Positions 9,381 to 31,501 of a stretch of 32,410 nucleotides of DNA are shown here, piece by piece. Each line of letters begins with the position of its first letter. The first letter of the stretch is position 1. The position numbers and the translations under genes are program-made. Source of the DNA: Bacteroidales bacterium (lineage in GTDB: Bacteria; Bacteroidota; Bacteroidia; Bacteroidales; UBA932); the NCBI GenBank assembly GCA_017626355.1, contig JAGAIY010000021.1, forward strand, positions 1-32,410. Reading direction: 5' to 3'. The notes under the pieces were generated by a model, which made no database searches, had not been told where the DNA came from, and saw only the letters and a list, made by a program, of their open reading frames with translations.

Positions 9381-9604
9381 TTGATTGAACCGATCTTAGA
9401 GAAGTCAATAGAAACAATTTCTCCCTTGACATCCTCGACCTTGATCTGTCCACAACTCTTGTCTGTAGGGCGAGCGATGATCTGATCCTTAAGTTCAATG
9501 TCCAGAAAAGATGAATTCAGTTCAAATTTGCACTTACACTTATCAGGCTTTGCGCAAGACGACAATGCTAAAACTGCCAAAGCGACAATAAAAAACTTTT
9601 TCAT
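9359..9604 (-). CDS. Small Cys-rich lipoprotein
   Basis: This 81-residue protein has a clean lipoprotein signal peptide (MKKFFIVALAVLALSSC, Cys17). The mature part has four further cysteines: CKC near residue 23, SCGQ near 51 and KC near 76. It would lie in the periplasm or outer membrane. The stop codon overlaps the start of the redox membrane protein by 22 nt, so both are expressed together. The extra cysteines make a disulfide-exchange relation plausible, but this is inference. No domain is recognised. A good promoter precedes it. Confidence 0.75.
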   Translation of the reverse strand: MKKFFIVALAVLALSSCAKPDKCKCKFELNSSFLDIELKDQIIARPTDKSCGQIKVEDVKGEIVSIDFSKIGSIKCVNYQD

Positions 9605-9676: not shown

Positions 9677-9794
9677 GAATTAACAAAATAGATCACATAA
9701 ATTATCTAACAAAATAAACATCAACCTCAAGAAACCGGCACCTTCATTATTTACGTGGAGGCTAACTAAATGATTTGCAGCGACTTGACATCCC

Positions 9795-9820
9795 AGCCTG
9801 CCTTCCCGGGAATGCAGGCT
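9795..9820. repeat. 26-nt palindrome, copy 1
   Basis: Arms AGCCTGC (9795-9801) and GCAGGCT (9814-9820) enclose a self-complementary TTCCCGGGAA core. Only the C/T pair at 9802/9813 breaks perfect symmetry. It is followed by TATGG. A second member of the same design lies at 10433-10458. Confidence 0.75.
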
Positions 9821-10031
9821 TATGGGTTACTTTATTGAGTAACAGAGAGTTATCTCCCATAACATCTGCAGAAAGATTGCTCTGGGGATCAAAAGTGAGA
9901 TATCAAGAGTCTGTAGAGAGCGCGAAGTACAAAATAACGGGTGGTTCTCTTACTTCGCGTATAATGCATCAGTTCCAAGAAAAAAATATGATCACATTGT
10001 AGTATACAATATCTTATGCAATTAACGGTGA

Positions 10032-10325: not shown

Positions 10326-10432
10326 AATTTATAAATGAGATCCTCATCTGAGAGGAAAGATTGTATATGTTGCAACTCAGCACAGAAACAGCATGTCGCC
10401 TAAGCCACTGACCAGCAGCTGCTCATCGAATA

Positions 10433-10458
10433 AGCCTGCAACCCCGGGGCGGCAGGCT
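10433..10458. repeat. 26-nt palindrome, copy 2
   Basis: Arms AGCCTGC (10433-10439) and GCAGGCT (10452-10458) surround CCCCGGGG. Including the flanking TA/TA, the symmetry extends over 10431-10460. It has the same length, the same arms and a CCCGGG centre like copy 1, although the inner bases differ. Confidence 0.75.
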
Positions 10459-10739
10459 TATAGCATAAAACACAGATACTCAAGCAGATAGATGCACGCC
10501 CAGACATGAACATACCGGATGGTTACTGTGTTACCAGCAAGCATAAACAGGGGTATTATTCATCGTTGTCACTATTTTTGTATCACCTTGACATCTGACT
10601 CGTTGAACTAGTGTGTGACATATCTTTTCAAGAGCCTGAAGAATATTCAATATTAAAAGATGAAAGATGTCACTAATACCCAGTTCTGGCCGCATTTGAG
10701 ATTTCAATTGAATAATGTGAGTCTTATAGAAGGGGTTAA

Positions 10740-10771
10740 CCCGACTTTGACTAATTTTGATCAAAGTCGGG
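10740..10771 (-). terminator. CCCGAC-type hairpin, copy 2; probable terminator of the DUF4493 operon
   Basis: CCCGACTTTGA (10740-10750) and TCAAAGTCGGG (10761-10771) form a perfect 11-bp stem with a 10-nt loop. It lies about 75 nt past the last DUF4493 stop codon. On the minus strand it is followed by TTAACCCC, a weak T-tract, so termination is plausible but not strong. Confidence 0.5.
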
Positions 10772-10845
10772 ATAGTTCTGTGTCAGATTTGAAAAATAGG
10801 AAATTATGTTGTTGAGTCAAATTGAAGAAAATGACTTATCCGATG

Positions 10846-12864
10846 TTATCTATAATTAACAATTATACTATATATCCTTACGTTGGTATACTCAAAACCA
10901 GCATCTATTGTTCCATATGAATTTGTTGCTTCTATAGTAGGAGATGATGTTTTCAATTGAGCATCATTGTAAGTCTCATCAATATTAGTTGCTGTACCAC
11001 CTAAAGAGTATTGGTCTTTTGTATAATGTACTGTAGCTCCAACCTTAAAAGTATATGTACAATCATCTGCACGAGTATATTGGCGCGCTTTGTGATTTAC
11101 TGATACATTTATATCTCCAGGGATATGGAATGTTTGAGTAATTGTATTTTTATGAAGTCTTACGTATTCATCGTTCCAACTATTAGCAGATCCAGCCCAA
11201 GGATGATTCCCACTATTTGTAGGAGGTGCAGCTGTATACGGCAACCCGGTGATGACGCATGTACATTCTCCTTCTGATTCTTTTCCATCAAAGGTAACTT
11301 TTGCCTTTAGGGTGTGAGAATTCCAACTTAGACCGGAGATTTCTCCTTGGCTGTGTGTTTTAGAAGCTGAATATGTACCATAGACTGTCTTGCCATCTAC
11401 TTCGTAGGTTACTGTTGGTTTAGAGTAATTGCTGTTTCCCAATATGTTATCGGCAATAGTAATATTTGACGACACTTCATGGATAGTTTCGGCGTCCTTA
11501 GTATTCGCAACTGCAGCACCTTGTGAGGTGTAGTAACTGTATGAAGTCTTTCCCGACACACTGACACTAAACTCCGGCTCACCAACCTCAATGTCCGTCA
11601 TTGAGGATAATTTGTATTCTAACTCAGTTTTGAGTCTGTGTTTAACATTCAGTACATAGTCTGTTCCTTGTGGAAGGTATGGGTAGTTATTAGCTACAGT
11701 CATCGTGGTCTGTCCTGAGGCGGGAGCAGTTCGCATTGTTTTGTCATCCTTAACGAGTGTGATGTCACCCACGTCTATTTTAGCTGTCAGGAAATCATTC
11801 AGCTTAAGGTCAAGGGTTGCGGTTGTGCCTGCAAGGTTGCCACTGTCATCATTATAATGAGATGTTGTTACTGTTGGTGAGACAACAGTTATTTCTTTAA
11901 TATCCGATAAAAGGTTACCGACTTCTGCCCGCACATAATATTTTGTATTGTTTACCAAGCCATCAATAACAAGAACTTCTTGCGAAGATGATCCAACAAG
12001 ACTTGTGCATTTCTCATCAGAATAAACCTTATATACAATTTTCGAAAGATTTTCAGAAGATATTCCATCCACAGATGTCACCGGATTGACATAAAGTCGT
12101 CCTCCCCAAGCACCATCCTGCTGTTCCGGTAAGGTAATCGACGGGAGTGTAATTCCGGTAGCTGAAAGCGTAATATTGTATGCGGTGTTAGCTTCAGGGG
12201 CCAAGGTGACTGTAAAGTCTTTTTCGACTCCGGCTGAACTCTTTCCGTCTATCTTTACAGTAAGCTGTTCACCTGAAGGCACAAACACATATGTATCCAT
12301 TGCAGCAGCAATATTTCCGGAACTTCCTGAAATTGTCACAGGAGTGTCGCCTTCAGGTTCGAAATGATCATTAAAGCCTTCTGCCATAGTCACCTTCATT
12401 ACCGAGTTACCAAGAGTAAAAGTCACAGTTCCTTCAGCAGTTGCAAGGGCTGATACTGTAACCTCTCCAGAACCGACGAAGTATGGCGTGCCAAAGTCGT
12501 TTGAGCCGCTTGTTGCAGAAAGAGTATACTTTCCTGCAGGCAGTCTCAAATCTCCATCATTAATGGTCCATGTATAAAACGCAGGCTCCCCCTCCTGTGG
12601 CTGTTCAGGAGTCACTGTAACTTCTGACAATTCAGGTCTATTTTCGCCAATCAAATCAGAGATATCCATAGTAGACTCCCCCGCCTTAGTAGGCACAAGC
12701 TGCTCGACCTGGACGTCGAGGTCGAGGCCGGAGATTGTGAGGTAGCCGTAGGCTGCATCCTGTTCTTCTCCGAGCTGCACGCATGAGGTGAAGGCGATGG
12801 CCAATGAAGCTATCAGAGAAAGAGTACGGGTTACTGTATATTTGTTGTTAATGAACATTTCCAT
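10846..12864 (-). CDS. DUF4493-type surface lipoprotein with long C-terminal extension
   Basis: This is the last gene of the surface operon (672 residues). It has a lipoprotein signal with FTSC at Cys28. The DUF4493-like N-domain shows YGYLTISGLDLDVQVEQ, then TKA at 59-61, LPAGKYTLSATSG and the family block TLGNSVMKVTMAEGF, which lacks the usual Cys. After about residue 240 come several beta-rich segments of unknown family, one with a fibronectin-like YYVRAEVGN turn. The gene is a compositional mosaic: hand-counted GC is 34/60 at 12661-12720 but 18/60 at 10861-10920. A 95-nt gap separates it from the gene upstream, the largest in the operon, without a recognisable promoter. ATG 12864 was chosen; an in-frame ATG follows two codons later. 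Confidence 0.75.
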   Translation of the reverse strand: MEMFINNKYTVTRTLSLIASLAIAFTSCVQLGEEQDAAYGYLTISGLDLDVQVEQLVPTKAGESTMDISDLIGENRPELSEVTVTPEQPQEGEPAFYTWTINDGDLRLPAGKYTLSATSGSNDFGTPYFVGSGEVTVSALATAEGTVTFTLGNSVMKVTMAEGFNDHFEPEGDTPVTISGSSGNIAAAMDTYVFVPSGEQLTVKIDGKSSAGVEKDFTVTLAPEANTAYNITLSATGITLPSITLPEQQDGAWGGRLYVNPVTSVDGISSENLSKIVYKVYSDEKCTSLVGSSSQEVLVIDGLVNNTKYYVRAEVGNLLSDIKEITVVSPTVTTSHYNDDSGNLAGTTATLDLKLNDFLTAKIDVGDITLVKDDKTMRTAPASGQTTMTVANNYPYLPQGTDYVLNVKHRLKTELEYKLSSMTDIEVGEPEFSVSVSGKTSYSYYTSQGAAVANTKDAETIHEVSSNITIADNILGNSNYSKPTVTYEVDGKTVYGTYSASKTHSQGEISGLSWNSHTLKAKVTFDGKESEGECTCVITGLPYTAAPPTNSGNHPWAGSANSWNDEYVRLHKNTITQTFHIPGDINVSVNHKARQYTRADDCTYTFKVGATVHYTKDQYSLGGTATNIDETYNDAQLKTSSPTIEATNSYGTIDAGFEYTNVRIYSIIVNYR

Positions 12865-12959
12865 TAATTTTTGTTGGTTTCTATTTTCATTCAGACGGCC
12901 ACAGCAATTCTTGCATCACCATTACATTACGGGCAGTCTTCGGTAAGAGTATCAGGCAG

Positions 12960-13739
12960 TTACTGACCGGAACCTGTATCCTGGGTCGGATCGACTTCTA
13001 CCTCCACAGAGAGTTCTTCACAGTCTGTATCAACTTCAATTGTCGGTTTATTAAGATTGCCGGATTCATCACCTTTGATCCTGAACTGAAGGGTCAGGTG
13101 TGTTTTAGGCTGAATCTTCATACGATCCGAAATCTCAGGTATTGGATTACCTTCTTTATCTTCTCCTGTAAATTCATACACAAGGTAATACGATTCTGAC
13201 GGCTTGAAATATCCCACTGCAACATTGTCAGCATTGTACTCAAGCTTACGGGATTCATTATCTTCCGTCCAGACCTTTACCCCATACTCAGTGACATAAT
13301 TTGCAAAGTTTCCGATAAATTCAACGGATACGGCTGTATTCACCATTGAACACTTAAGTTCAAAAGTAGCAGCCTTTCCTGCCTCTACAGGCTTTGTAAC
13401 AGGATCACAGGCATATCTTACCTGTCCTCTGCCGGCCAGAGAAGCTCCCTCCGTCACATTGTCTGCATAGATGGTATAGTTACCGACACCTACTGCCATA
13501 ACAGCATCCAGTTCACGGTACTTCTTGCTTATCGGTTCGAAATCAAGGGCATCTTCCGATGTGATGTATACATTGAATTCATTCACATCTACAGAATCAT
13601 CTGCCTTTGTCACGACTTCCACTACCGGCGAGTTTTCAAGAAGAATGGATATAGCTCCATCCGCCTTGCCTTCTATCACGATTTCCTGACATGATACGGC
13701 AGAAAAAAGGACCGTAGCCATGAATAATACTCTTTTCAT
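12960..13739 (-). CDS. DUF4493 lipoprotein
   Basis: This 259-residue surface lipoprotein has a lipobox ending in AVSC (Cys17), followed by QEIVIE. The first strand (GAISILLENSPVVEVV) leads into TKA at residues 44-46. The next elements are EFNVYI, VGNYTIYADNVTEG, the block CSMVNTAVSVEFIGNF, and a C-terminal set of strands (THLTLQFRI) that ends in a Gly-Ser tail. It belongs to the shorter subtype B of this cluster, which has a Gly-rich RY segment (GRGQVRY) instead of the F..P.Y of subtype A. It starts 6 nt after the preceding stop, inside the operon. Function is unknown; see the type V pilin hypothesis in findings. Confidence 0.82.
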   Translation of the reverse strand: MKRVLFMATVLFSAVSCQEIVIEGKADGAISILLENSPVVEVVTKADDSVDVNEFNVYITSEDALDFEPISKKYRELDAVMAVGVGNYTIYADNVTEGASLAGRGQVRYACDPVTKPVEAGKAATFELKCSMVNTAVSVEFIGNFANYVTEYGVKVWTEDNESRKLEYNADNVAVGYFKPSESYYLVYEFTGEDKEGNPIPEISDRMKIQPKTHLTLQFRIKGDESGNLNKPTIEVDTDCEELSVEVEVDPTQDTGSGQ

Positions 13740-13745
13740 AATAAA

Positions 13746-14624
13746 TCAATTAACTTCAAGTTCGCAATCAATGACTATCGCATCATCTATTGCAGTATCT
13801 ACAAAAATTTTCGGCAGGTTCATTTCAACGACTTCCGCACCGCTGTCCGGATCTACGATTGCAGTCGTCGAATTCTCGCCCATAGTGTCATCCACAGATA
13901 TATCTGGGCCTCCAATGATTCCGTTATGGTTGCTCCTTATGACTACCTTAGCCCATTTTGCAGGAAGGAGTGTTATAGGGGAGGATGCATTTGTATATGT
14001 GAGACGTCGTTCCTGATCTGTCCCTTTGCATATGGTGGCAGCTACTGTATATATAAGCAAGCCACCTGATGAAGGGATATTGAAATATATTTCCTGACCA
14101 CCTTCCGGGTTTGCCGGTGTCAGAGGGATTTCCACCTCCCTGTCACCGACCTTCATTGATGCTGTTATATCGGTAAAGTCGGCAAGGAAACTCCGGTCAA
14201 GGGTCAGTGAAGCCTTGGCATTGACCATCGTGCAGCTTACGACAACAGGGACAGCCGTCTGCGAAGCTACCGTGAATTCGGGAGAAGTGCCATAGTATCT
14301 GACACAACCTGCTCCCACTTCCGCATCATCTTCAGAACAGTTTTCCGCTGAAACAGTATAAGTTCCGAAAGGTATCGCTTCTGAGGCGTCCATCTGCCCA
14401 TAGATATATTCCTGAAGATATGTTTCTCCCGTAGCCCGGTCTCCGTCAACGGTCACTCTGAAATTACTGCAGTCAACAGAACCAGCCTTTGTCGGAGCCT
14501 CTACTTCCACGTCAGACGACAACGAGAGGGAGATGGAGCCCATCTGTCCGGGTTCCATGATCATTTCGTTGCAGGCCGTCAGCAGAAGCAGGGCTGCGAA
14601 TATGTTTATGGCTGATTTCAACAT
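13746..14624 (-). CDS. DUF4493 lipoprotein
   Basis: This 292-residue lipoprotein has Cys18 in LLTAC, followed by NEMIME. The first strand is GSISLSLSSDVEVEA, then TKA at 45-47. Family elements follow: NFRVTVDG, IPFGTYTVSAENC, GAGCVRYYGTS and CTMVNAKASLTLDRSF. A Cys pair spaced by ten residues (ENC...GAGC) is shared with the homologue at 15511-16317 and could form a disulfide on the cell surface. The middle has a lysine-poor beta region with PEGGQEIYFN. Spacing is 9 nt from the upstream gene and 6 nt to the downstream gene. No catalytic motif is visible. Confidence 0.82.
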   Translation of the reverse strand: MLKSAINIFAALLLLTACNEMIMEPGQMGSISLSLSSDVEVEAPTKAGSVDCSNFRVTVDGDRATGETYLQEYIYGQMDASEAIPFGTYTVSAENCSEDDAEVGAGCVRYYGTSPEFTVASQTAVPVVVSCTMVNAKASLTLDRSFLADFTDITASMKVGDREVEIPLTPANPEGGQEIYFNIPSSGGLLIYTVAATICKGTDQERRLTYTNASSPITLLPAKWAKVVIRSNHNGIIGGPDISVDDTMGENSTTAIVDPDSGAEVVEMNLPKIFVDTAIDDAIVIDCELEVN

Positions 14625-14633
14625 TAATTCTGG

Positions 14634-15479
14634 TTAATTATTATTTATAGTTCCTCCTAATGGGTCCACCTCTTGATTTATGTTAACTGATTCTGAAATG
14701 GATGTATCAGCACTGATATCAAAAGTTATATTACCATTCTTGCCAGCCTTGAATGTAATCATATTCCATTTATTTGCTTGAACAGTGAATGTACCATTGA
14801 ACACTTTTGACTTATCATCTACAGTTGCCTCGATAGACCAGCTAAGAGTATCGTTATCAACATTAAAATATGCAACTGAAGTGTTATTTTCAGTTGTATG
14901 AGTGTAAGTTACAGAATTACCTTCTCCACTTGATTGCACGGTTGCAAGATTGCTCATCGTCAAATTACGGGTTCCATCTATAAGTTTTACAGTAGCACTG
15001 GTAAATGTCGTTGTAAAACCATCAGCAAAACCAACTGTAACCTTTGCATTGACTGGTGTACAATTTACTGTAACCTTCTGGGTAGTAGCTCCAGCTGTAA
15101 CAGTAATATCTCCAGATGTGCCTTTCACTCTTACATCGCCATAACCTCCGTTTGCAGATTCTGCTTCAGCTTCGGTATAATTCTCTGCCTCAATAACGTA
15201 AGCACCAGCTGGTACTTTAAGATCAGCTTCAGTAATCTCTGAATATTCTTTATAATTGTTAGACCACTGATAAGCACCATCCTTCTTAAGATATACATTA
15301 TATGTGCTATTGTTCTTTTCTACTGTAGTTTCAGCCTTAGTATCCACAATCTCTATATCCGAAGAAAGGCCGAAATTGATATAGCCATACTCAGAATCAG
15401 GCATAGGGCCTTCGATAAGTGTTTTGTTGCAAGCTGTCAATGCTGCAAGGACAGCTGCTGCAATCATGATTTTTTTCAT
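14634..15479 (-). CDS. DUF4493 lipoprotein
   Basis: This 281-residue lipoprotein has Cys17 in LTAC and the CNKTLIE start typical of this set. The first strand is YGYINFGLSSDIEIVD, then TKA at 47-49. The order then follows the family: TYNVYLKKDG, VPAGAYVIEAENYTEAEAE, GDITV and CTPVNAKVTVGFADGF. The last third has NKWNMITFKAGKNGNITFD, a typical terminal strand pair. Its DNA is more AT-rich than its neighbours (22/60 GC at 14821-14880, hand-counted, against 28/60 at 13981-14040 in the next gene). This suggests recent exchange of this cassette or different codon use. Confidence 0.85.
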   Translation of the reverse strand: MKKIMIAAAVLAALTACNKTLIEGPMPDSEYGYINFGLSSDIEIVDTKAETTVEKNNSTYNVYLKKDGAYQWSNNYKEYSEITEADLKVPAGAYVIEAENYTEAEAESANGGYGDVRVKGTSGDITVTAGATTQKVTVNCTPVNAKVTVGFADGFTTTFTSATVKLIDGTRNLTMSNLATVQSSGEGNSVTYTHTTENNTSVAYFNVDNDTLSWSIEATVDDKSKVFNGTFTVQANKWNMITFKAGKNGNITFDISADTSISESVNINQEVDPLGGTINNN

Positions 15480-15510
15480 ATTGGTATAGAATCTTTAATT
15501 GTTAATAATC

Positions 15511-16317
15511 TTATTCATATGGGTTAAAACTGCCAATGATGTCGTTTCCTTTTTCAATATCCGTATCAACTGATGATTCCAGAGTCAGGATACCGTTAGA
15601 AGATACTGCCTTTATATTGAGCTGGATATTATCTTTAGCCGCCAACTTGCCGCCTTCTCCGGTTCCGGTTATGGTTCCTGTCGCTGTAACACGCTCACTT
15701 GTAAGGGCTGAGGTTCCTGATATCTCATATACCACCAAGGAACCTGCATTGAACCAGAATTCTTTTCCACCGCCGGAATATCCTGCAACGCGGGATCTTG
15801 GCGGATCAGTACGCTTCAATGTCACGGTAAGGTCATCATCCTTGAATCTGCCGGCAACGGAAGCATCGAAAGCCACAGACACCTTGGCATTAACTACAGA
15901 ACAATCTACAATTGCACTTTCTGAAAAACCGGCACGAACTACGACTGCTTCACTTGTTCCTGCTAACCTCATGCATCCGTTTCCATTCTCGGCAATACCG
16001 GTCCCGCAGCTTTCCGCCCATACATAATATGTACCGGCTGGTATAAGAATAGGGTTTGAAAGTTCAGAATACTTTGTCTTGCCTACAACAGGATCCCCTG
16101 TGCATTCCGGATCAGAATATACGGCGATATAATAATCCTTAGCCTGGTCTGCCGTCAGTTCAGAAGACGCTTTGCTTACGACATCGACAACAGGTTCTCC
16201 GGCAAGCACTACCGACAGTTCCCCATAATCTGCCGGAGCCTCGATTCGAACGTCATTGCACGAAACCGCGCCAAAGGCCACAACCATCACATAAAGAAAA
16301 GCCTTTTTCATGTTCAT
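15511..16317 (-). CDS. DUF4493 lipoprotein
   Basis: This encodes 268 residues from the ATG at 16317 (MNMKKAF), which has AGGAAAAG five bases upstream. A longer open frame reaches 16398 but would overlap the preceding gene and destroy the signal peptide. Lipidation is at Cys20 (AVSC), followed by NDVRIE. The first strand YGELSVVLAGEPVVDVV leads to SKA at 48-50. Other family features are DYYIAVYSD, IPAGTYYVWAESC, NGNGCMRLAGTS and CSVVNAKVSVAFDASV. It shares the ten-residue-spaced Cys pair with the 13746-14624 product. It is a subtype B member and sits 10 nt downstream of the PCMD gene. Confidence 0.83.
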   Translation of the reverse strand: MNMKKAFLYVMVVAFGAVSCNDVRIEAPADYGELSVVLAGEPVVDVVSKASSELTADQAKDYYIAVYSDPECTGDPVVGKTKYSELSNPILIPAGTYYVWAESCGTGIAENGNGCMRLAGTSEAVVVRAGFSESAIVDCSVVNAKVSVAFDASVAGRFKDDDLTVTLKRTDPPRSRVAGYSGGGKEFWFNAGSLVVYEISGTSALTSERVTATGTITGTGEGGKLAAKDNIQLNIKAVSSNGILTLESSVDTDIEKGNDIIGSFNPYE

Positions 16318-16327
16318 ATATCTTTTC

Positions 16328-17911
16328 CTATTCATAAACAAATTCAAATTCATCAACATACAATGTACTTCCGACTCCGCCGGTGAAGTAGTCGCCAAGA
16401 TAGCTTGCTGCGCAGGCTATGACTATGTATTTCGGCCTGCGGGTCTTATCGCGATATTCAAGAGGCAGGTTGAATTCACGGTATTTTCCTCCTGTATCTT
16501 CATCCGATTCCAGACGGGCATAAGCGATTATGCCGGGATCGTTGTCAACATCGACGAAACGCCCTGCTGTGGTGTTGATTCTGAACGGTCCGCTCCAGTC
16601 TGTCAGGAAGACCGTTATCTGGCATCTGTCATTCTTTCCCTTCTTGTCTTCATGCGGAGCCTTTACATTGTCTATCGGCTTAGGCGAATAGCTGTAATGG
16701 CCTTTCAGGGCTACTGGACGTCCTGTGAACGGCACTCCCCAGTCGAGTTCCGCTCCCACACCCGCTATCTTTCCGAAGGCTCCGGTGTAGATATTTCCGG
16801 CAGCGAAAGCGATTACAGCGTATTTGCTTTCCATCCGGGCAGCCTTGCCGCTCACCACGAAACTTTCTTCCGGTGATGTGGACGAGCCGATGAAGGTGGC
16901 AGCGCCAGGGTTGGCCGAGTCCCATACCGACGGGCTGGCTCCCTGAGCATAAGGATACCATACATTACCCTTGCTGTGCCATTCGTCAAAGTTCATGTTG
17001 TAGAGCTGCTCCGGAGTATCTGTCACAAAGACATATTCGGAACTGTATGCCCCATCCTCCGCTACTCTTGCGACATATTCGGTACCGGCTTCAAGTCCTT
17101 TCACATCGGCAGAGATTCCGACTCCGGCAACGACTGCGTCCTGAACCGTAATCCATTCTGAATCAGAAGATTTCCTAAACTCCAGAGTAGGTGTTCCGGA
17201 ACCTGTGAAGACTCCGTAGATCTTTGCATGGTAGCACCATGTCTGGACTTCATTGACCTGCTGGCTGATCTTCTTCTTCAGCACCTTGAGCGTCCATTCG
17301 TATGTATTTCCTTCATAGTGCACAAGAAAAGAACGTCTGTGCACACAATCAAGGGTCATCGGGAACCTGCATGCGAGAGTTTCAAGGGAGCCATCATCTG
17401 CAGCTCCTGTGGTGGTACGCACAACAGATCCTTCAGGTTCAAGCTTGACGTCAAGGAAACGCACTTTCGAAAGCAGCTGATTTTCCGACACATACACTAT
17501 TGCATTACGGTTAGCCAGGTCAAGGTCAGCTTCTCCCACCTGATTCTCCACGGTGATGTATCTGTCAATCGGCTGGGTTGCGCTCACTGTCCAGAAATTG
17601 TCGATATATGTCCTTACATTGATTCTGACCGTATCCGTAAGGTCCAGATACTCGGGAACAGGCTCCGAAAGCTCAGCATCCTCGCTGACCGTAATGTTCA
17701 GAACCTTAAGCCTTGACATGTCCGAAACCTCGTCCAGCACGACATCTATGTGCCTTTTCTCAGCATCGATACTGACAGTCTCCTGCCCCTCTACCTCAAA
17801 TGCCACGATATCGGCAGGTATGTCCGGGTAGGCCATATCGTTTTCGAACAGACAGGATGTCGCCGAGAACAGCATGACAGCTGTAAGATATATGATGTTT
17901 CTTATCTTCAT
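16328..17911 (-). CDS. PCMD-domain surface lipoprotein (no DUF4493 domain)
   Basis: This 527-residue lipoprotein has Cys20 in ATSC. The N-terminal region (about 30-215) is a beta-rich segment (RLKVLNITVSEDAELS, then FWTVSATQP). A fibronectin-like stretch follows (LEAGTEYVARVAEDG). From about residue 303 comes a putative carbohydrate metabolism (PCMD) domain: YNMNFDEWHSKG, WYPYAQGA, WDSANPGAATFIGSSTSP, SKYAVIAFAAGN, RPVALKGHYSYSP, ASYLGDYFTGG. PCMD has a jelly-roll, carbohydrate-binding-like layout, but no proven activity is known to me. Its PCMD domain is strikingly close to that of the gene at 18723-20882. No [ST]KA site is seen near the Cys, which sets it apart from the DUF4493 members. Confidence 0.85.
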   Translation of the reverse strand: MKIRNIIYLTAVMLFSATSCLFENDMAYPDIPADIVAFEVEGQETVSIDAEKRHIDVVLDEVSDMSRLKVLNITVSEDAELSEPVPEYLDLTDTVRINVRTYIDNFWTVSATQPIDRYITVENQVGEADLDLANRNAIVYVSENQLLSKVRFLDVKLEPEGSVVRTTTGAADDGSLETLACRFPMTLDCVHRRSFLVHYEGNTYEWTLKVLKKKISQQVNEVQTWCYHAKIYGVFTGSGTPTLEFRKSSDSEWITVQDAVVAGVGISADVKGLEAGTEYVARVAEDGAYSSEYVFVTDTPEQLYNMNFDEWHSKGNVWYPYAQGASPSVWDSANPGAATFIGSSTSPEESFVVSGKAARMESKYAVIAFAAGNIYTGAFGKIAGVGAELDWGVPFTGRPVALKGHYSYSPKPIDNVKAPHEDKKGKNDRCQITVFLTDWSGPFRINTTAGRFVDVDNDPGIIAYARLESDEDTGGKYREFNLPLEYRDKTRRPKYIVIACAASYLGDYFTGGVGSTLYVDEFEFVYE

Positions 17912-17917
17912 GGCCTT

Positions 17918-18721
17918 CTATCTTTGCGGTCTGTTCTTACCTGTCTGGAAATAAACAGAAACTCCCATATTGATCGAGAACAAATTGATCTTGAAACTTG
18001 CATTGTTCTGCACCATCTGGCTCACCTCGACCTGATTCGTCGTCTGAACCGTCTTCTGATGGGTGAAGCCAAGCACGCCTACAGACACTTCAAGAGCCGC
18101 TTCATTGGTCACGAAACAGCAAAGTCCCGGAACCACGCTGAGAGAAGCCTTGTAGATGTCCTGATATGTACCGTATTTCTTCCCGTCCTGCACCTTGTAA
18201 GACTCCGACTGGGCATATGATCCTGTGGCTCTGAGTTCCGCGAACATCGCAAAACGCTTGCTGTCAGCGATAGGCATGTAGTTACGCAGAGTTATCGAGC
18301 CGGAATATGCCTGCTTGAGATAGTTCATATCGGAAACATTCAGGGTCATCAGATTTCCAAGCGAAAGGTCGAGTGCGTCGAGATTATAGCCGGACTTGTC
18401 ATAATCGAAACGAAGTCCGAGTGAAATGTTGTCCTTGATGAAGTACGAGACATAAGGAGCAAGTCCGAATGACTGCAAGGATCCATAGACATTGTCAAGA
18501 AGCGAAAAGAGCATCTTGTATCCAGCATCGTCCGATCCGTTTCCGAGCTGATAGTTGCTGTATGATACGGAGAGGCCTCCCCCGACAGTCCCCTTAGGGA
18601 TGAAGAGGGAGTTTGCCTTACCGATGCCTCTGTCAAAAGGTTCGGCTGCTGTCTGCTCGCTCTGCGCCCAGGCCGAAAGACCTGTGCAAAGCACTATCAT
18701 GACTGCAAATATCCTTTTCAT
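17918..18721 (-). CDS. Outer-membrane beta-barrel protein
   Basis: This encodes 267 residues from the ATG at 18721, one base after the upstream stop (TAG-T-ATG). Upstream in-frame starts would lie in the preceding gene. A signal peptide (MKRIFAVMIVLCTGLSAWA, cleavage at AQ) replaces the lipobox. The rest alternates hydrophobic and polar residues in amphipathic strands (GGGLSVSYSNYQLG, YVSYFIKDNISLGLRFDYD, LFSINMGVSVYFQTG) and ends near an aromatic strand, as expected of an 8- to 12-strand barrel. It is the only obvious integral outer-membrane protein in the middle of the operon and sits between the two PCMD genes. It may anchor or export them, which is inference. Confidence 0.8.
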   Translation of the reverse strand: MKRIFAVMIVLCTGLSAWAQSEQTAAEPFDRGIGKANSLFIPKGTVGGGLSVSYSNYQLGNGSDDAGYKMLFSLLDNVYGSLQSFGLAPYVSYFIKDNISLGLRFDYDKSGYNLDALDLSLGNLMTLNVSDMNYLKQAYSGSITLRNYMPIADSKRFAMFAELRATGSYAQSESYKVQDGKKYGTYQDIYKASLSVVPGLCCFVTNEAALEVSVGVLGFTHQKTVQTTNQVEVSQMVQNNASFKINLFSINMGVSVYFQTGKNRPQR

Positions 18722-18722
18722 A

Positions 18723-20882
18723 CTACTTGTTATATTGTACTTTTGCTTTCTCGGCATCCGTGAGCTTGGTCACATCGTATTCGAAGGAGAGTTCATCGAT
18801 GTACAAAGTACTGCCCTCTCCACCTGTGAAATAGTCTCCGAGGTACGATGCAGCCGCAGCGATCACAATGTATTTCGGTGTCTTGTCGGTATAGCGATAT
18901 TCCAAAGGTATCGTGAACTCCACATAATCGGAATGGGGATCGCTGGACTCGAGACGGCCGAAGGCTATGATGTCGGAGCCGTTCACATCAACAAACTGTC
19001 CCTTTGTCGTATTGATGGTGAAAGGCTTGCTCCAGTCAGCAAGAATGACGGTAATCTGAGCCTTGTCCTTCTGGCCTTTGTAAGATTCCATTCCTGAACC
19101 TGTCCTGTCGATATCCTTAGGGGAATATTTGTAATATCCTTTCAATGCAACCGGACGTGAAGTAAACGGAATACCCCAGTCGAGATAAGCACCCACTCCA
19201 TCGATCGCTCCGAATTTTCCTGTATAAAGGTTACCGGCAGCAAAGGCGATCACGGCATATTTACTTTCCATTCTTACAGCCTTGCCCTTGACAGCATCCG
19301 CACCTTCTACCGGTGAGGTCGAAGAGCCTATGAAAGTTGCCGCGCCCTTATTTGCAGAATCCCATACAGTCGGATTTGCGCCCTGAGCATAAGGATACCA
19401 GACTTTGCCATCCTGCCACCATTCATCGAAATTCATGTTGTACACTGAGGCGGCAGAACCGGTCGTGAATGATACCTCACGGGTATCTGTATCTGCAGCT
19501 GAAACGGCCTTGACTACATATGCCGTGTTCGGCTCAAGCGATCCGATCTCTGCATCGAAGGTCTTGGAAGAAGTGTTGAATTTCAGGTCGGAACTGTTCA
19601 CTGATGTCCAGGAAGACTCCGAAGCCTTCTTATACATGAAGGTTGTTCCCTCAGGAGCAGATGCACTGAAATATTTACCCTTAACAAGTACGAACTTGGC
19701 CCATGGCGATACAGAAACCACATCCGCATCCACTTCCGTAATCACAGATATATCCATAGGACAGTTTGCCACATGACCCTTGGTGTCGTAAAGGGTCACA
19801 TCAATATTGTAATCACCGGTAGGGAGACTCTTGATGTAGTCCGTGACATCTATGACTGCCGAAGTCGCACCGTAAGCGACAGACTGGGTCTTGATACCCT
19901 TTGAACGAAGTTCGTCAATATCTGCCTGCGAAGCATCTACAAGCTCATACCACTTAAGCGACGAACGTGTCTGGACTTCGCTGTCGATGGCGAGAATAAG
20001 AGACTTGATACCATCCGGAGCAGAGAACGTAAGCTCTTTCTTTGAGTCATCTCCCACAGGAACCGACATCTGGTTTGTAAGGTCGAAGCCTTCATTCGCA
20101 GAGAATGACGGAAGTTCCGACTCAGAGAAGTCAAGTTCTATCTCACGTGTATCTTCATTTACGGTATTGTCCACGATGAGCTTTATCGCAGAGAAACCGG
20201 AATCACCGAGATCATCGGAAAGTGCAAACCTGATGTTATAGCAGTGCTGAGCCTTCAGGTCTTCATACTTGTCCTTAGCCACATATTTATCTCCCTGATC
20301 ATTGATCAGGACAAGATGCCACTCCAGGTTTCCACCCGCAGGGAGATAACCCTTAGAGTTGAGATTGTAGGCATCCGAACTGTAAGTGAAGCCTACGCCT
20401 TTGCCATCCTCGACAAAGACGGAATATGACCTGAAGTTAGCTGTAATGGACTCATCGAACTCCACTGTCACCATCACATTGGCAAGCTTGCAGATCACGC
20501 TTGCCTCCGTAAGGTCGTCTGTGGTAATATTGGCCTGGGCCACGCCTTCATAATAAGGCTTATTGAAACCGATGCCGGCAGGATCACCATGCTTCGCCTT
20601 GAGATCATACTTACCCACAGGCAGTACAAGCGGTTCTTCCTTAGTCAATGTACGATGGTCCTCAACGGTCTCTTCTGTCTTGGCTCCTTTGACTTCGATA
20701 CTGAAAGCCATGTCAGGACCGGGAGTAATCTGAGCCTTGGTAAGCACTTCATCATCCATTCCCAGACTGACACTCAGGTAGCCCGTATCCCCGGAATGTT
20801 CGCTGAGGATGACATCGTTGCATGCCACCGTCAGCCCGATCAGGGAAACTGCTGTCAGAATTTTGGTTAAAAATCTTTTCAT
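18723..20882 (-). CDS. DUF4493-PCMD fusion surface lipoprotein
   Basis: This 719-residue protein has Cys21 in TVAC and the start NDVILS. The DUF4493 part (1 to about 230) shows GYLSVSLGMDDEVL, TKA at 48-50, LPVGKYDLKAKHGDP, GFNKPYYEG (subtype A) and CKLANVMVTVEFDESI. The middle (about 230-475) has Ig- and fibronectin-like beta segments (LPTGDYNIDVTLYD, LEPNTAYVVKAVS). The C-terminal PCMD domain (about 481-705) repeats YNMNFDEWWQDG, WYPYAQGA, SKYAVIAFAAGN and ASYLGDYFTGGEG almost word for word from the gene at 16328-17911. It begins 24 nt after the upstream gene and ends 1 nt before the barrel gene. Confidence 0.88.
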   Translation of the reverse strand: MKRFLTKILTAVSLIGLTVACNDVILSEHSGDTGYLSVSLGMDDEVLTKAQITPGPDMAFSIEVKGAKTEETVEDHRTLTKEEPLVLPVGKYDLKAKHGDPAGIGFNKPYYEGVAQANITTDDLTEASVICKLANVMVTVEFDESITANFRSYSVFVEDGKGVGFTYSSDAYNLNSKGYLPAGGNLEWHLVLINDQGDKYVAKDKYEDLKAQHCYNIRFALSDDLGDSGFSAIKLIVDNTVNEDTREIELDFSESELPSFSANEGFDLTNQMSVPVGDDSKKELTFSAPDGIKSLILAIDSEVQTRSSLKWYELVDASQADIDELRSKGIKTQSVAYGATSAVIDVTDYIKSLPTGDYNIDVTLYDTKGHVANCPMDISVITEVDADVVSVSPWAKFVLVKGKYFSASAPEGTTFMYKKASESSWTSVNSSDLKFNTSSKTFDAEIGSLEPNTAYVVKAVSAADTDTREVSFTTGSAASVYNMNFDEWWQDGKVWYPYAQGANPTVWDSANKGAATFIGSSTSPVEGADAVKGKAVRMESKYAVIAFAAGNLYTGKFGAIDGVGAYLDWGIPFTSRPVALKGYYKYSPKDIDRTGSGMESYKGQKDKAQITVILADWSKPFTINTTKGQFVDVNGSDIIAFGRLESSDPHSDYVEFTIPLEYRYTDKTPKYIVIAAAASYLGDYFTGGEGSTLYIDELSFEYDVTKLTDAEKAKVQYNK

Positions 20883-20906
20883 CTATAGTCGTCTGTTAAT
20901 TGATGA

Positions 20907-22316
20907 TTAATTGGCAGGAACATGGAATTTCAATGACCATTGATTCTCTATACCGTTCTTATCGGCAACCATCAAAGTAAAGGTGTGATATGTATCAGGG
21001 CCGGCCTGGCCTGCTGAAGGAATCATCGGTACAAGCATAGAGAGAGCAAAGCTGATTTCAGTTATACCATCACCTGTAAGCTCTTCACCTGTCTTCAGTC
21101 CTACGCTCTTAAAGGCTGTCACTGCCGCCTGGTCATTGACAAGGTCTACAATAACCGGGTCTGACGAAGGCTCCGTTCTAGGACTGCCGGTCATAAGGGA
21201 GACAAGGGTAAGGAACCCAGGAGTATCAGACTCAATCTTTATCTTGAACTGGTCGATACCAGCCGGAGAAGTCAGCTTAAGGTTGACATCCATTTCTTCC
21301 TGGATTTCAGTCACTTCCGGAAGAGAAGACTTACCTGTCCACTCAAGTTTGATAGGATTCTCGACAGCATCTCCGGAACCTTCATCACCATCGCCATCTC
21401 CATCTCCTGAGCCTGTATTATCACCTGAGCCGGTGTTGCCATCTCCTGAGCCTGTATCTCCGCCATCGACGGGCTTATCCCATGGATCCTCTACAGGATC
21501 CTCATCGAAACCGGGAACATTGGCTTCCTCATCACGCTCATTGACTGCAGGATCTATCGTAAGCTGAAAGCCTGACTGTCCTGTCACTTTAGCACCAAGC
21601 TTCACATTGACATGGTCCCTTGCTTCTGCATCAGAAAGAGCTATCTCGTGATATGCATCCGAGTTGTCGAGTTTCCTCTTCGCATCCACACGGATGACGA
21701 TATGAGGGGCAACCTCGAAATAGCCCGGCTTGCTCATATCCTTTGTCGTGAACTGATCTTCGACCTCAGACTCCACACTGGTCCAATACAGAGTATTCTC
21801 CGCTCCCTCACCATTGGAAACGGTTATAGTGTAGTCCTTGAGTTCCAAGGCGAACTCCTCTGCAAGTTGAAATGAAATCTTGATGTTCTGAAGAGTGCAG
21901 ACGAGCTTCTCAGAAGACACCTCGCCGATCTTTACATCAAACTCATGCTTTGCACCATAGACCGGCTGATCGAAGGCAGCAGGAAGAGCCTGTGGAGACG
22001 AGACCTCAAGAGTCCATCTTCCTGAAGGGATCTGAACCATCTGAGGCATATCGCCGAATCTGGCATATTCCTTAACCAATCCGTCAGACTCTCTCGTCAT
22101 CTTGATGGTAAACTCGTTGACGTCTTCATTACGAAGTTTCGCGCGAGTTTCAGAAGCCTTTGACACAGCCTCGAATTCATCCGATGCTGTAAGATCCAAG
22201 GTAAGCTCTCCGTACCCTGTATCTGTATCCTCGATAAGGGTATTGTTACAACCTGCAAAAATTGCAGAAGCTGCCAATATACTGATAAATATCTTTTTCA
22301 TCTTTTCCGATTTCAT
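20907..22316 (-). CDS. DUF4493 lipoprotein with Asp/Gly/Ser-rich linker
   Basis: This encodes 469 residues from the ATG at 22316, which follows the previous stop by one base (TAA-A-ATG). An alternative ATG at 22301 (MKKIFIS) is equally possible. Lipidation is at IFAGC, followed by NNTLIE. The first strand YGELTLDLTASDEFEAV ends in SKA, and the next codons add another basic site (SETRAK). The family block is CTLQNIKISFQLAEEF. Residues about 265-320 form a low-complexity linker of repeated GSGDG and DGDGDG units, rich in acidic residues and perhaps Ca2+-binding. A C-terminal beta-domain of about 150 residues follows (LEWTGKSSLPEVTEIQ). This domain is not PCMD and I do not recognise it. Confidence 0.83.
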   Translation of the reverse strand: MKSEKMKKIFISILAASAIFAGCNNTLIEDTDTGYGELTLDLTASDEFEAVSKASETRAKLRNEDVNEFTIKMTRESDGLVKEYARFGDMPQMVQIPSGRWTLEVSSPQALPAAFDQPVYGAKHEFDVKIGEVSSEKLVCTLQNIKISFQLAEEFALELKDYTITVSNGEGAENTLYWTSVESEVEDQFTTKDMSKPGYFEVAPHIVIRVDAKRKLDNSDAYHEIALSDAEARDHVNVKLGAKVTGQSGFQLTIDPAVNERDEEANVPGFDEDPVEDPWDKPVDGGDTGSGDGNTGSGDNTGSGDGDGDGDEGSGDAVENPIKLEWTGKSSLPEVTEIQEEMDVNLKLTSPAGIDQFKIKIESDTPGFLTLVSLMTGSPRTEPSSDPVIVDLVNDQAAVTAFKSVGLKTGEELTGDGITEISFALSMLVPMIPSAGQAGPDTYHTFTLMVADKNGIENQWSLKFHVPAN

Positions 22317-22317
22317 T

Positions 22318-24498
22318 TTAATAAACAAGTTCCATATCATCTATCGTCAGGAAGCATCCTGCATGCGCTTTCACGGTTTCTTCTCCGAGCCTGAACTCTT
22401 CTCCGACAGAGAAAGATCCTTCCCCATAAGACGAGCTTATCCTTACATAGATTTCAGCCGCCTTCTTATTGAACACAGTGTATGTAAACGGAAGTTCATA
22501 CCTTGTCCATGAATCAGCTCCAGGACCGTCCGTCACCTGAGCTGTTGCCAGTGTCGTTCCATCCTCAGCCTTCACCCATGCATCGATAAAGAACTTCTTT
22601 CCTTCCTTTGTCTGATATTTATAATAGAAGGCAAGTTTCGACGGGCGGCTGCTGAAAGCGTGACCCTGAGTCGCGATATTTCCGTCAGCATCGGAGGTTC
22701 CGATCCAGATTTCGCCTTCGTATGTAGTACCTACGGCAGTACCGTTTGTATTACTGTCACCGATATTCACACAATAAAGCATTGCGGCCTTGTTTCCGGA
22801 TCTTGCATCAGTGACATATCCTGATGAAGGGAAGTTCTTGCACCATGTTCCACTCCATCCGGTATGTCCGTCCGGCATGGACTGAAGGCTGTTGCATGCC
22901 CACCATGGATCGACTTCTCCCATCGCATAAGGAAGATACCAGTTACGGGTATAAGTACCTCCACCCAATGCGCCACCTGCCGGTGTGAATGAGGTCTGAA
23001 CAAGCTGATAGTCCTCAAATCCGCTGTTTCCAAGCTGGTCAGGAGACTCTGTCGTGAACGACACCTCATCAGAAACAGGCGCCCAATCGTCATAAAGCAC
23101 TCTGAGATAGTAAGTTGTTGCCGGCTGAAGACCGGATATCTCGTTCAGATGGAACGGATTTGCATCCAGGTTCCTTACATCCGACCAGTTCTCTCGGTCA
23201 GCACTGTACTGTACCTTTGCAAAAGACATGTTTCCGCCTGTGAGCTGTACTGTAGCATCTGCAAGCCTGGTAGCCCACACATCATAGTCCTGGACTGAAA
23301 TTGTCGCACTGGCATTCGGACTGACGAGAATCTTTGCTGTCTTTGTCACAGAGGCACCGGCAACATCGGTAACTGTCAGTCTGAATGTAGCCGTAACCGA
23401 ATTGCGTCCCTTATAAACCGCATTCTTCGATATTCCTGCGATGAAATCGGAAATATCTATCACACCGATTCCACCATAGAAAAGCCAGAAGAAACCTTTT
23501 TCCTCAAGAGCCTTGATCTGATCTGTGGTCTGGGCGGCGAAATCGATGCTTGCCGGAATGCCTATGCTCTCCATATAATCGTTGTCGATCTCAAGAACGC
23601 AGCTCTTCAGGCCTGAATATGCTCTGAGAGTGAAAGACAGATCATCCGCCTCAGCTTCCGTTCCCTCCTTGACATAGAAATTGCCATCGGCATCAAATGA
23701 AGAGAGAGTTATCCGAGGTTTAAGATCCGACACGGCATCAGCTGGAACCGCAAACTCCTTCTGCTCCACTGTGACGGAATCATCTATCTTGATACCGACA
23801 ATGAGACCGCCGTAATTGACGGCAGTATTGACATTGAATGTAATGTAGTCATTAGGTTCGGCATCGATCAGAAGCGGATCGCCGTTCTCGTCCTTGAGAG
23901 TATAGCACTTCAACTCTCCATCCACAGGAGCATAGACCGTAACGGACAGTTTGCCTCCCGGAATGTATCCCGGACGCTCTTCGTCAGCGTCGAACCTGAC
24001 TGAAGCCCTTGCAGACTCGTTTCTGATGATTGTGTAATAATCGGTATAGGCCTCCTTGATATGGTTGCCGTAGTCAACGGTCATCCTGACATTCGCAAGC
24101 CTGGCTGCTGCGTCGACAACGACCTTCTGGGCAGGAGCTACGGTAAATGTCTCCTTGGCCATATAGAAAGGTGCATCGAAGCCGAAGCCTAAGGAATCAC
24201 CATACTTTGCCATGAAAGTATAGTCTCCGGAATTTATCCGGATCGTTTTCTCAGGATCGTATGCTTCCCTGTAGAACTTGACATTTTCAGAATTGACCAA
24301 TTCAATCCTGAAGTCCTCCGGTGACGGCAGTGCAGTCTCCGTCCCGGACTTGGCACTTACGATCTCAACTCGTTCATCTGCAGTCAGATTTATGACAAGC
24401 TCACCCTCCGAACCAGGAAGCTGAGTGTCTATCAGGTTTTCATTGCATGCAGTGAACAAGAGAGCCGCAAGTACCGGCAGAAATCTTGTTCGTCTCAT
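22318..24498 (-). CDS. DUF4493 lipoprotein with divergent PCMD-like C-terminal domain
   Basis: This 726-residue protein has Cys18 in LFTAC and the start NENLID. The N-domain has GELVINLTADERVEIV, then AKS at 49-51 where the others have [ST]KA. Family elements follow: INSGDYTFMAKYGDS, GFDAPFYMAKETFTV and ARLANVRMTVDYGNHI, in which Ala replaces the usual Cys. Middle Ig-like segments include LQPATTYYLRVLYDDW. From about residue 490 (GNSGFEDYQLV) the C-terminus follows the PCMD pattern more loosely: WYLPYAMGE, GNKAAMLYCVNIG, SSRPSKLAFYYKY, GCFLTIDDMELVY. It is the first DUF4493 gene after the DUF3575 head gene, with a 19-nt gap. Confidence 0.83.
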   Translation of the reverse strand: MRRTRFLPVLAALLFTACNENLIDTQLPGSEGELVINLTADERVEIVSAKSGTETALPSPEDFRIELVNSENVKFYREAYDPEKTIRINSGDYTFMAKYGDSLGFGFDAPFYMAKETFTVAPAQKVVVDAAARLANVRMTVDYGNHIKEAYTDYYTIIRNESARASVRFDADEERPGYIPGGKLSVTVYAPVDGELKCYTLKDENGDPLLIDAEPNDYITFNVNTAVNYGGLIVGIKIDDSVTVEQKEFAVPADAVSDLKPRITLSSFDADGNFYVKEGTEAEADDLSFTLRAYSGLKSCVLEIDNDYMESIGIPASIDFAAQTTDQIKALEEKGFFWLFYGGIGVIDISDFIAGISKNAVYKGRNSVTATFRLTVTDVAGASVTKTAKILVSPNASATISVQDYDVWATRLADATVQLTGGNMSFAKVQYSADRENWSDVRNLDANPFHLNEISGLQPATTYYLRVLYDDWAPVSDEVSFTTESPDQLGNSGFEDYQLVQTSFTPAGGALGGGTYTRNWYLPYAMGEVDPWWACNSLQSMPDGHTGWSGTWCKNFPSSGYVTDARSGNKAAMLYCVNIGDSNTNGTAVGTTYEGEIWIGTSDADGNIATQGHAFSSRPSKLAFYYKYQTKEGKKFFIDAWVKAEDGTTLATAQVTDGPGADSWTRYELPFTYTVFNKKAAEIYVRISSSYGEGSFSVGEEFRLGEETVKAHAGCFLTIDDMELVY

Positions 24499-24517
24499 CT
24501 ATTTTCGGTTAAAAATC

Positions 24518-25930
24518 TTATCTGTTCTCATAATATTCCGGCTTGACCCTGCGGGCAGAAAACCTGTATGTAAGGTTGATTGCTGCACGGGTTATGCCTA
24601 TATGAGTTGCGTTCTGGTGCTCGTGTATGTACCATTTGCCATCGGCTTCATTCCATGAGCCGAGGTTCTGTCTGTAATCGCCGTAACCGACTCCTACAAG
24701 GAACTCAAGGCCCCAATGTGCCTTGCGGTCAAGGGCAAGGGAGTAGCCGTAGGTAAGGCCTATGCTCCATGCAGGCGCCCCACTTCCTGCATCAGCTCCG
24801 TACTGGCCTTCAGCTCCGTTCTGGTAAAGATATCCGTCAGTCCATTGCAGGGTGTACCATGCCACATTCGCATGGAGTCCGAGGAAGCTTCCTCTCTGCA
24901 TCGCATTATCCTTTGACCAGAATCTTATCTCCGGTGCAAAACCGTAAATATTCGTAGTCTCATCCTCCTTGCAGAAGATGTTTGTATTGCTGTACCATCC
25001 CTGAAGGTCAAGCGACACTCGTTTTCCTATCTGGAATTCAAGACCTGCCATAGGTATTGCGATGGCATCCGCCACAAGGTTGGTCTTAACGCCTATCATC
25101 CATGGGGTGTCATGGTATTTAACCTCTCTTGGAGCCTTGGTATAGACCGGTTCTACCGGAGCCGGTTCTTCCTGAACAGGCTTCTCTACCACTACAGTCT
25201 CCTTTATCATGACAACCGTATCCCTTACAAAGACAGTGTCGACCTGCACAGGTTCCGGCTCTGTTACCGGTTCCGGTTTCGGAGCCACCGGCGAGACAGG
25301 TTCCGAGAGATATGGCTTTGATGGATCCCATTTGCAGAAAATCGCAAATCTCACGCAACGGAGCTGCGGGAAGAAGTCCTCTTCAAGGATCCTCCATACA
25401 CGACCGCCGTCAAGCTTCTGAAGCGCCTTCTTGCGCTCGCCCCAATCCTTTGTCCTGATTATGTAAAGGACTTCATACTTGAAAGGGAGATCGGACTCCT
25501 GGACGAGTTCGGCAAGCTTATCCCAATCTTCGTTAAGGCTTTCCGCATGTATCATATAGTCCGGAATATTCATCACGGACTTGATATAGTCAACCGCATT
25601 CCTTGTCCTGGCCTCGCTAAGCCTTACATTATCGGCCCAAAGCCCGTCCGGAGACGCACTTCCGCATACCCAGACCTGCATAAGGTCGATGTCAGGATCT
25701 TCCAGAACCTGAAAAAGCTCGAAGGCTGCGACGTTGAATTTATAGTAATTGCTGAGTTTCGAGACACCTCGAGGCATGGTGATGGATGTGAGGACACTGT
25801 CAGCATACAGCGTCTTCGTTCCGAAATCCTCAGGTTTTACATATCTGACATACGAAGACTGGGCAGAAGCCGTCCAGCCAAGCACGAATGCGCAGATCAG
25901 TGTGAGTATAAGTGTCAGCTTTTTACTCAT
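24518..25930 (-). CDS. OmpA-like / DUF3575 outer-membrane protein, head of surface operon
   Basis: This encodes 470 residues from the ATG at 25930 (MSKKLTLILTLICAFVLGW, signal cleavage after SAQ). The open frame extends upstream to 25996, but that part covers the promoter. Residues about 25-200 resemble an OmpA-like domain (VWVCGSASPDGLW, then NVRLSEARTRNAVDYI). About 215-280 is a Pro/Glu/Val-rich linker (PVAPKPEPVTEPEPVQV). The C-terminal about 190 residues fit DUF3575 (WMIGVKTNLVADAIAIPM, ending in amphipathic strands and LTYRFSARR), probably a barrel. In Bacteroides, DUF3575 proteins occur in fimbrial gene clusters with FimB/Mfa2-type proteins. Here it leads a DUF4493 operon, so an anchoring or assembly role is a reasonable guess. 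Confidence 0.83.
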   Translation of the reverse strand: MSKKLTLILTLICAFVLGWTASAQSSYVRYVKPEDFGTKTLYADSVLTSITMPRGVSKLSNYYKFNVAAFELFQVLEDPDIDLMQVWVCGSASPDGLWADNVRLSEARTRNAVDYIKSVMNIPDYMIHAESLNEDWDKLAELVQESDLPFKYEVLYIIRTKDWGERKKALQKLDGGRVWRILEEDFFPQLRCVRFAIFCKWDPSKPYLSEPVSPVAPKPEPVTEPEPVQVDTVFVRDTVVMIKETVVVEKPVQEEPAPVEPVYTKAPREVKYHDTPWMIGVKTNLVADAIAIPMAGLEFQIGKRVSLDLQGWYSNTNIFCKEDETTNIYGFAPEIRFWSKDNAMQRGSFLGLHANVAWYTLQWTDGYLYQNGAEGQYGADAGSGAPAWSIGLTYGYSLALDRKAHWGLEFLVGVGYGDYRQNLGSWNEADGKWYIHEHQNATHIGITRAAINLTYRFSARRVKPEYYENR

Positions 25931-25960: not shown

Positions 25961-25991
25961 CAAAATTACAAGAAATTTTTCCAAATCCAAA
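25961..25991 (-). promoter_or_regulatory. Promoter of the 15-kb surface-protein operon
   Basis: On the minus strand, TTTG (25991-25988), exactly 19 bp and TAATTTTG (25968-25961) form the best consensus promoter in the window. It precedes the DUF3575 start by about 30 nt. Gaps inside the operon are 1-31 nt except for one of 95 nt, so this may drive all eleven genes. Confidence 0.7.
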
Positions 25992-31412: not shown

Positions 31413-31501
31413 GAAGATAGGACTCAAGCACGAAATACCGTTAAAGAAAAAGAAAAACCGACATATAAATTAAATTTTATATGACCAAAATAAATTTTAC
31501 A

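Follow-up and report, generated by a model that had tools for sequence, protein, structure and literature searches.

An eleven-gene DUF4493 operon of a Bacteroidales bacterium that looks like an undescribed branch of type V pili

Genes and signals of the operon

We analysed a stretch of 32,410 nucleotides (nt) from an uncultured Bacteroidales bacterium of gut type (assembly GCA_017626355.1, contig JAGAIY010000021.1), here called the window. The host genome has 1.70 Mb in 28 contigs and is 73.8% complete. The window contains an operon of eleven genes, g01 to g11, all on the minus strand and running from 25930 to 10846, eight of which encode proteins with DUF4493, a domain of unknown function. 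We think, with a probability of about two in three, that the operon encodes a donor-strand fimbria system, namely a divergent type V pilus. Its features, from upstream to downstream, are:

25961..25991, minus strand: promoter match of Bacteroidetes type, TTTG-N19-TAATTTTG (pattern search)
24518..25930, minus strand: g01, 470 amino acids (aa), OmpA/TPR-type-related N-terminal half and C-terminal DUF3575 (PF12099, 6.4e-26)
22318..24498, minus strand: g02, 726 aa, DUF4493, middle domain, FN3-like domain and weak PCMD head (PF14900, 2.6e-30; PF13201, 30.4 bits)
20907..22301, minus strand: g03, 464 aa from an internal Met (477 aa in the longest open reading frame, ORF), DUF4493, Gly/Asp-rich linker and middle domain (PF14900, 1.5e-36)
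18723..20882, minus strand: g04, 719 aa, DUF4493, middle domain, FN3-like domain and PCMD head (PF14900, 9.4e-41; PF13201, 4.7e-44)
17918..18721, minus strand: g05, 267 aa from an internal Met, signal peptide, no lipobox (alignment with 15 relatives)
16328..17911, minus strand: g06, 527-aa lipoprotein, N-terminal region, FN3-like domain and PCMD (PF13201, 3.2e-43; family alignment of 56)
15511..16311, minus strand: g07, 266 aa, short DUF4493 subunit whose C-terminal tail ends in NPYE (PF14900, 4.2e-21; orthologues in order)
14634..15479, minus strand: g08, 281 aa, short DUF4493 subunit (PF14900, 2.1e-25; orthologues in order)
13746..14624, minus strand: g09, 292 aa, short DUF4493 subunit, predicted type V pilin fold (PF14900, 7.2e-25; model with a predicted local distance difference test score, pLDDT, of 80.4)
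12960..13739, minus strand: g10, 259 aa, short DUF4493 subunit (PF14900, 1.2e-28; orthologues in order)
10846..12864, minus strand: g11, 672 aa, DUF4493, immunoglobulin-like region and C-terminal jelly roll at residues 541-672 (PF14900, 2.4e-17)
10737..10774, minus strand: hairpin about 70 nt past the g11 stop codon, a possible terminator (inverted repeat I5; missed by the terminator scan)

An initial annotation had described eight DUF4493 lipoproteins of 259-726 aa. Both statements proved correct: the Pfam family (PF14900, gathering cut-off 27 bits) matched 8 of the 11 proteins (g02, g03, g04 and g07-g11) with scores of 64-140.5 bits. For PCMD (PF13201, cut-off 28) we obtained 151.3 bits in g04, 148.6 in g06 and 30.4 in g02. 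The longest ORFs are separated by 19, -23, 24, -35, 6, 16, 31, 9, 6 and 95 nt, and the two overlaps arise because of upstream in-frame starts. When the internal Met adjacent to the signal peptide is used, g03 starts at 22301 and g05 at 18721 and the overlaps become gaps of 16 and 1 nt, so the spacing of 1-31 nt with one gap of 95 nt on a single strand holds.

The initial annotation had placed one near-consensus promoter ahead of the genes, and the promoter match is located 30 nt upstream of the g01 start codon. The pattern, which we take to be the Bacteroidetes-type consensus, occurs three times in the window against 0.58 expected, and at least three times in 4 of 100 shuffles, and is thus weak as a match. 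What counts is its position. We do not claim an invertible promoter, as we found only one 11-nt inverted pair near the operon start.

Precursor features, predicted fold and an apparent gene fusion

The eight DUF4493 proteins align with an invariant lipobox Cys, one Lys, two Gly, one Leu and one Asn. The common elements annotated at first were confirmed, with two motifs drawn slightly too strictly: [ST]KA is exact in seven of eight proteins (g02 has AKS) and [LIV]PxGxY is found in five, the exceptions being g02, g03 and g10. Since the others are only 16-26% identical to g04, the proteins are not copies of each other, as had been stated. These low identities, together with the kept order of the short subunits at three other loci, led us to reject a recent tandem duplication.

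A lipobox-type Cys in all eight proteins suggests lipoprotein precursors, as in type V pilins. In one alignment column after this Cys, 226 of 242 DUF4493 sequences have a basic residue (Lys or Arg), which stands 28-32 residues past the Cys in the window proteins. The available parts of the published reports place the Arg/Lys processing site of type V pilins 24-35 residues past the Cys, and the spacing in the window proteins falls within that range. The same column is basic in 116 of 119 rows of a smaller alignment, A4, which combined seven window domains (without g11) with 108 of the 130 non-redundant domains, omitting the 22 lowest-ranked, and four more. The two FimA homologues of the host also have TKA, and one Mfa_like_1 protein has TRA. 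A C11 clostripain, a candidate processing protease, is encoded in the host genome; a search there for C25 gingipain gave no match, and neither did its controls.

The basic site might instead be a mere flexible linker past the lipid that is never cut. Lipoproteins usually have such linkers as a matter of general knowledge, and [KR][AS] is also present at the corresponding place in 14 of 55 g06 relatives. We consider this very unlikely, because the basic residue keeps to a single column and only one of eight unrelated ORFs with a lipobox-like motif from the same loci, a small control, has the site.

The structure predicted for g09 from A4 gave FimA, Mfa2, Mfa3 and related proteins as the top 13 structural matches, near full length. 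Strand 28-33 comes before the loop containing K46, and this one model, the source of the fold result, shows a predicted two-β-sandwich pilin fold with a removable first strand. The only match of the DUF4493 profile to solved structures, 'Ferredog-Diesel', is non-fimbrial and was not used as evidence; g02 alone and g10 alone gave no match in the search against solved structures.

g01 provides a further tie to known pili. Its residues 35-195 match an OmpA/TPR-type accessory protein (L108:7924-9318, 3e-13) encoded in the FimA-Mfa2 cluster of the host (L108), and residues 279-416 match L108:9272-10024 (9e-13). Judged from sequence, g01 looks like a fusion of two adjacent proteins of that cluster, which has two separate accessory genes where the operon has one, and different pilin families. 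Homologues of both g01 halves are positioned near pilin genes in L108 and in the Mfa_like_1 cluster (L109). A 406-aa lipoprotein gene (L108:6656-7876, minus strand) lies between Mfa2 and the OmpA/TPR-type gene; its product has TKG at +28, and residues 1-62 can be aligned with DUF4493 (92%), part of this segment being signal peptide. DUF3575 and DUF3868 are listed in tables of iron-regulated genes in the available part of PMC10434189.

Gene order and distribution across genomes

A scan with g04 gave 511 relatives, the best of which form 78 distinct named loci. g04 was the query and is present in them by construction, and some share contigs with, or are close kin of, unnamed loci. The taxon labels are mostly Bacteroidales, with Bacteroidia (5), Candidatus Cryptobacteroides (7), Candidatus Egerieousia (1) and 'uncultured bacterium' (1). 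A complete core of three long DUF4493 genes, g05 and the PCMD lipoprotein was found in 66 of the 78 loci, while the remaining 12 are interrupted by a contig end. Within the 66 cores, 310 of 318 gaps (those under 2 kb) are at most 100 nt, overlaps included. The identical eleven-gene order is present in 3 of the 78 loci (L038, L040, L041), where g07, g08, g09 and g10 correspond one-to-one with their counterparts at 35-49% identity and have tails specific to each subunit, e.g. NPY close to the g07 end. The genome comparison that could have refuted the initial annotation, by showing that the genes occur apart, did not do so. In a variant core (L015, L023, L024, L026, L029), the first gene encodes about 600-640 aa and a DUF4493 gene about 245 aa; L023, L024, L026 and L029 each contain two g05-like genes, and one was recognised in L015.

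Of the genus, 61 genomes were compared, and DUF4493 is present in 57: one gene in 31, four in 19, two, three or six in two genomes each, and nine in the genome of the window, eight of them in the operon. Four genomes, some of them incomplete, have none. The loci we read from four-gene genomes consist of a cluster of three and a lone gene elsewhere. Lone DUF4493 genes of about 360-400 aa recur across the genus, and the ninth gene of the host (359 aa; L110:2029-3108, minus strand, contig C5) also lies apart from the operon. In the order Bacteroidales, 34 of 295 sampled genomes, the window's included, have DUF4493. We read 17 stretches with multiple DUF4493 genes from 16 of these genomes, 15 of them outside the family; in 14 stretches at least three DUF4493 genes are followed by g05- and g06-like genes, and L123, L128 and L129 differ.

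The 66 cores were also scored for DUF3575 and for accessory genes, i.e. extra short DUF4493 or g11-like genes, counting as accessory the 215-aa type between g02 and g03 of L032 and L061. Both were present in 12 cores, DUF3575 only in 2, accessory genes only in 4 and neither in 48 (Fisher p 2.9e-8, overstated since the genomes are related). The most frequent form is thus a core without extra short subunits (50 of 66). Five loci (L067, L068, L073, L075, L090) have, upstream of the core, a g11-like gene together with a DUF4493 gene that encodes 294-347 aa. This pattern suggests that the core is stable and that a stalk-and-tip module was gained or moved. It would also fit a pilus made from the accessory module only (g01, g07-g11), with the core g02-g06 forming a different surface complex within one operon; the joint presence or absence of DUF3575 and accessory genes and the upstream pairs point that way. 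Since g02-g04 share the DUF4493 domain and the site with g07-g11, we find such a division doubtful.

Head domains and proposed relation to known type V pili

The long proteins carry additional domains. A middle domain is common to g02, g03 and g04, the g02 domains recur in g04, and g02 may be a tip-type subunit. The PCMD part of g04 matches the solved structures 4jrl, 4het, 3hbz and 3s30. In NCBIfam, g03 weakly resembles the FimD tip adhesin (11.4 bits against a cut-off of 170), and we discarded this hit. g06 was not recognised as DUF4493 by profile comparison (4.0%). g05, kept in the core operon, has no Pfam match and is barrel-like as judged by eye only.

Fold comparison of g11 predicts a jelly roll of carbohydrate-binding type for residues 541-672, which makes it a candidate tip-adhesin. 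Because the g11 model has a predicted template modelling score (pTM) of 0.50 (pLDDT 75.9), we used its domains and not their mutual arrangement; its whole-chain Foldseek search gave unspecific multi-domain matches only. Seven g11-like genes (L064, L067, L068, L071, L073, L075, L090) combine the g11-type C-terminal region with a different N-terminal domain. These N-termini have no Mfa or DUF4493 match in Pfam at E 0.1, no solved relative, and 9.5% against the DUF4493 profile. Against the genome's Mfa_like_1 profile they gave 94% (E 1.3e-7, one comparison with small alignments). It is likely that DUF4493 was swapped there for a fimbrillin-type domain.

The proteins could also have the pilin fold by descent and act as separate membrane-bound glycan-binding lipoproteins that do not polymerise. 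The PCMD heads of g04, g06 and, more weakly, g02 and the jelly roll of g11 would suit this, as would the prevalence of cores without extra short subunits. BT2081 is presumably a member of the PCMD family. The available part of PMC2954218 assigns it a putative carbohydrate-binding site. Cutting at the strongly conserved site would, however, free the protein from its lipid; the common gene order and the subunit-specific tails also speak against separate lipoproteins, and SusC- and SusD-type genes have no Pfam match in the operon at E 0.1. We consider this alternative unlikely.

A type V pilus-like assembly is preferred because of the predicted fold, the putative processing site and the apparent gene fusion; with the shared gene order, these also support the earlier reading of the proteins as subunits of one surface structure. 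The precursors of the eight DUF4493 proteins would be lipidated and located at the outer membrane, with the first strand past the lipobox Cys followed by the loop with the K/R-A/S site, and would then be cleaved and polymerised. The four short subunits g07-g10, with their conserved tails, probably form the stalk; g02, g03, g04 and g11, with their C-terminal domains (PCMD, middle domain, jelly roll), are likely tip or adapter subunits whose heads may bind glycans. g06 may remain lipidated and serve as the anchor, which is a guess, and g01 and g05 probably act as accessory proteins in the outer membrane or the periplasm. A more elaborate version is quite improbable: the four non-equivalent stalk subunits g07-g10, retained one-to-one and in the same sequence of genes, would form an ordered heteropolymeric fibre with several glycan-binding heads, and the fused g01 would make up, with g05, the assembly platform in the outer membrane that type V pili have been missing.

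The operon resembles the type V pili of Bacteroidota (P. gingivalis FimA-E and Mfa1-5, Bacteroides Fim proteins) in its lipoprotein precursors, basic site, predicted fold, tip proteins with added C-terminal domains and multi-subunit arrangement. It differs in having DUF4493 instead of FimA/Mfa Pfam families, eight pilin-type genes, PCMD heads and a conserved g05. Compared with other PCMD proteins, its PCMD domains follow DUF4493 and FN3-like domains or belong to a lipoprotein encoded in a pilus-like operon. Several points weigh against our reading. The sequence ties between DUF4493 and known pilins are weak, and PF06321 (FimA), PF08842 (Mfa2) and PF13149 (Mfa_like_1) have no match to the operon proteins in Pfam at E 0.1. 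Of the stalk, tip and anchor of a type V cluster, we found candidates for stalk and tip, and no canonical anchor gene of Mfa2/FimB type in the operon. About half of the sampled genus (the 31 of 61 genomes with a single DUF4493 gene) has no cluster, and the conservation of the core is partly by construction.

Our literature search, with most subscription literature outside its scope, found no paper on DUF4493. The operon looks like an undescribed branch of Bacteroidales type V pili with sugar-binding-like heads; if DUF4493 is such a pilin branch, widespread surface operons of gut Bacteroidales gain a testable function. The available parts of PMC5789003 and PMC4789730 name no chaperone or usher identified for type V pilus assembly, and the fused g01 points to candidate accessory proteins.

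In the 1.4-kb gap past the operon we observed two copies (9794-9821 and 10432-10459) of a palindromic element, AAGCCTGC..CCCGGG..GCAGGCTT, like a repetitive extragenic palindrome (REP). It occurs at 15 places in the genome at up to 3 mismatches (control 0). A transposase-like gene of IS200/Y1 type (30477-31427, minus strand; PF01797, 21.1 bits, under the cut-off of 23) is possibly a REP-associated transposase for these palindromes. An ORF for an 81-aa lipoprotein-like protein (9359-9604, minus strand) overlaps the start of a MauE/DoxX gene (8460-9380).
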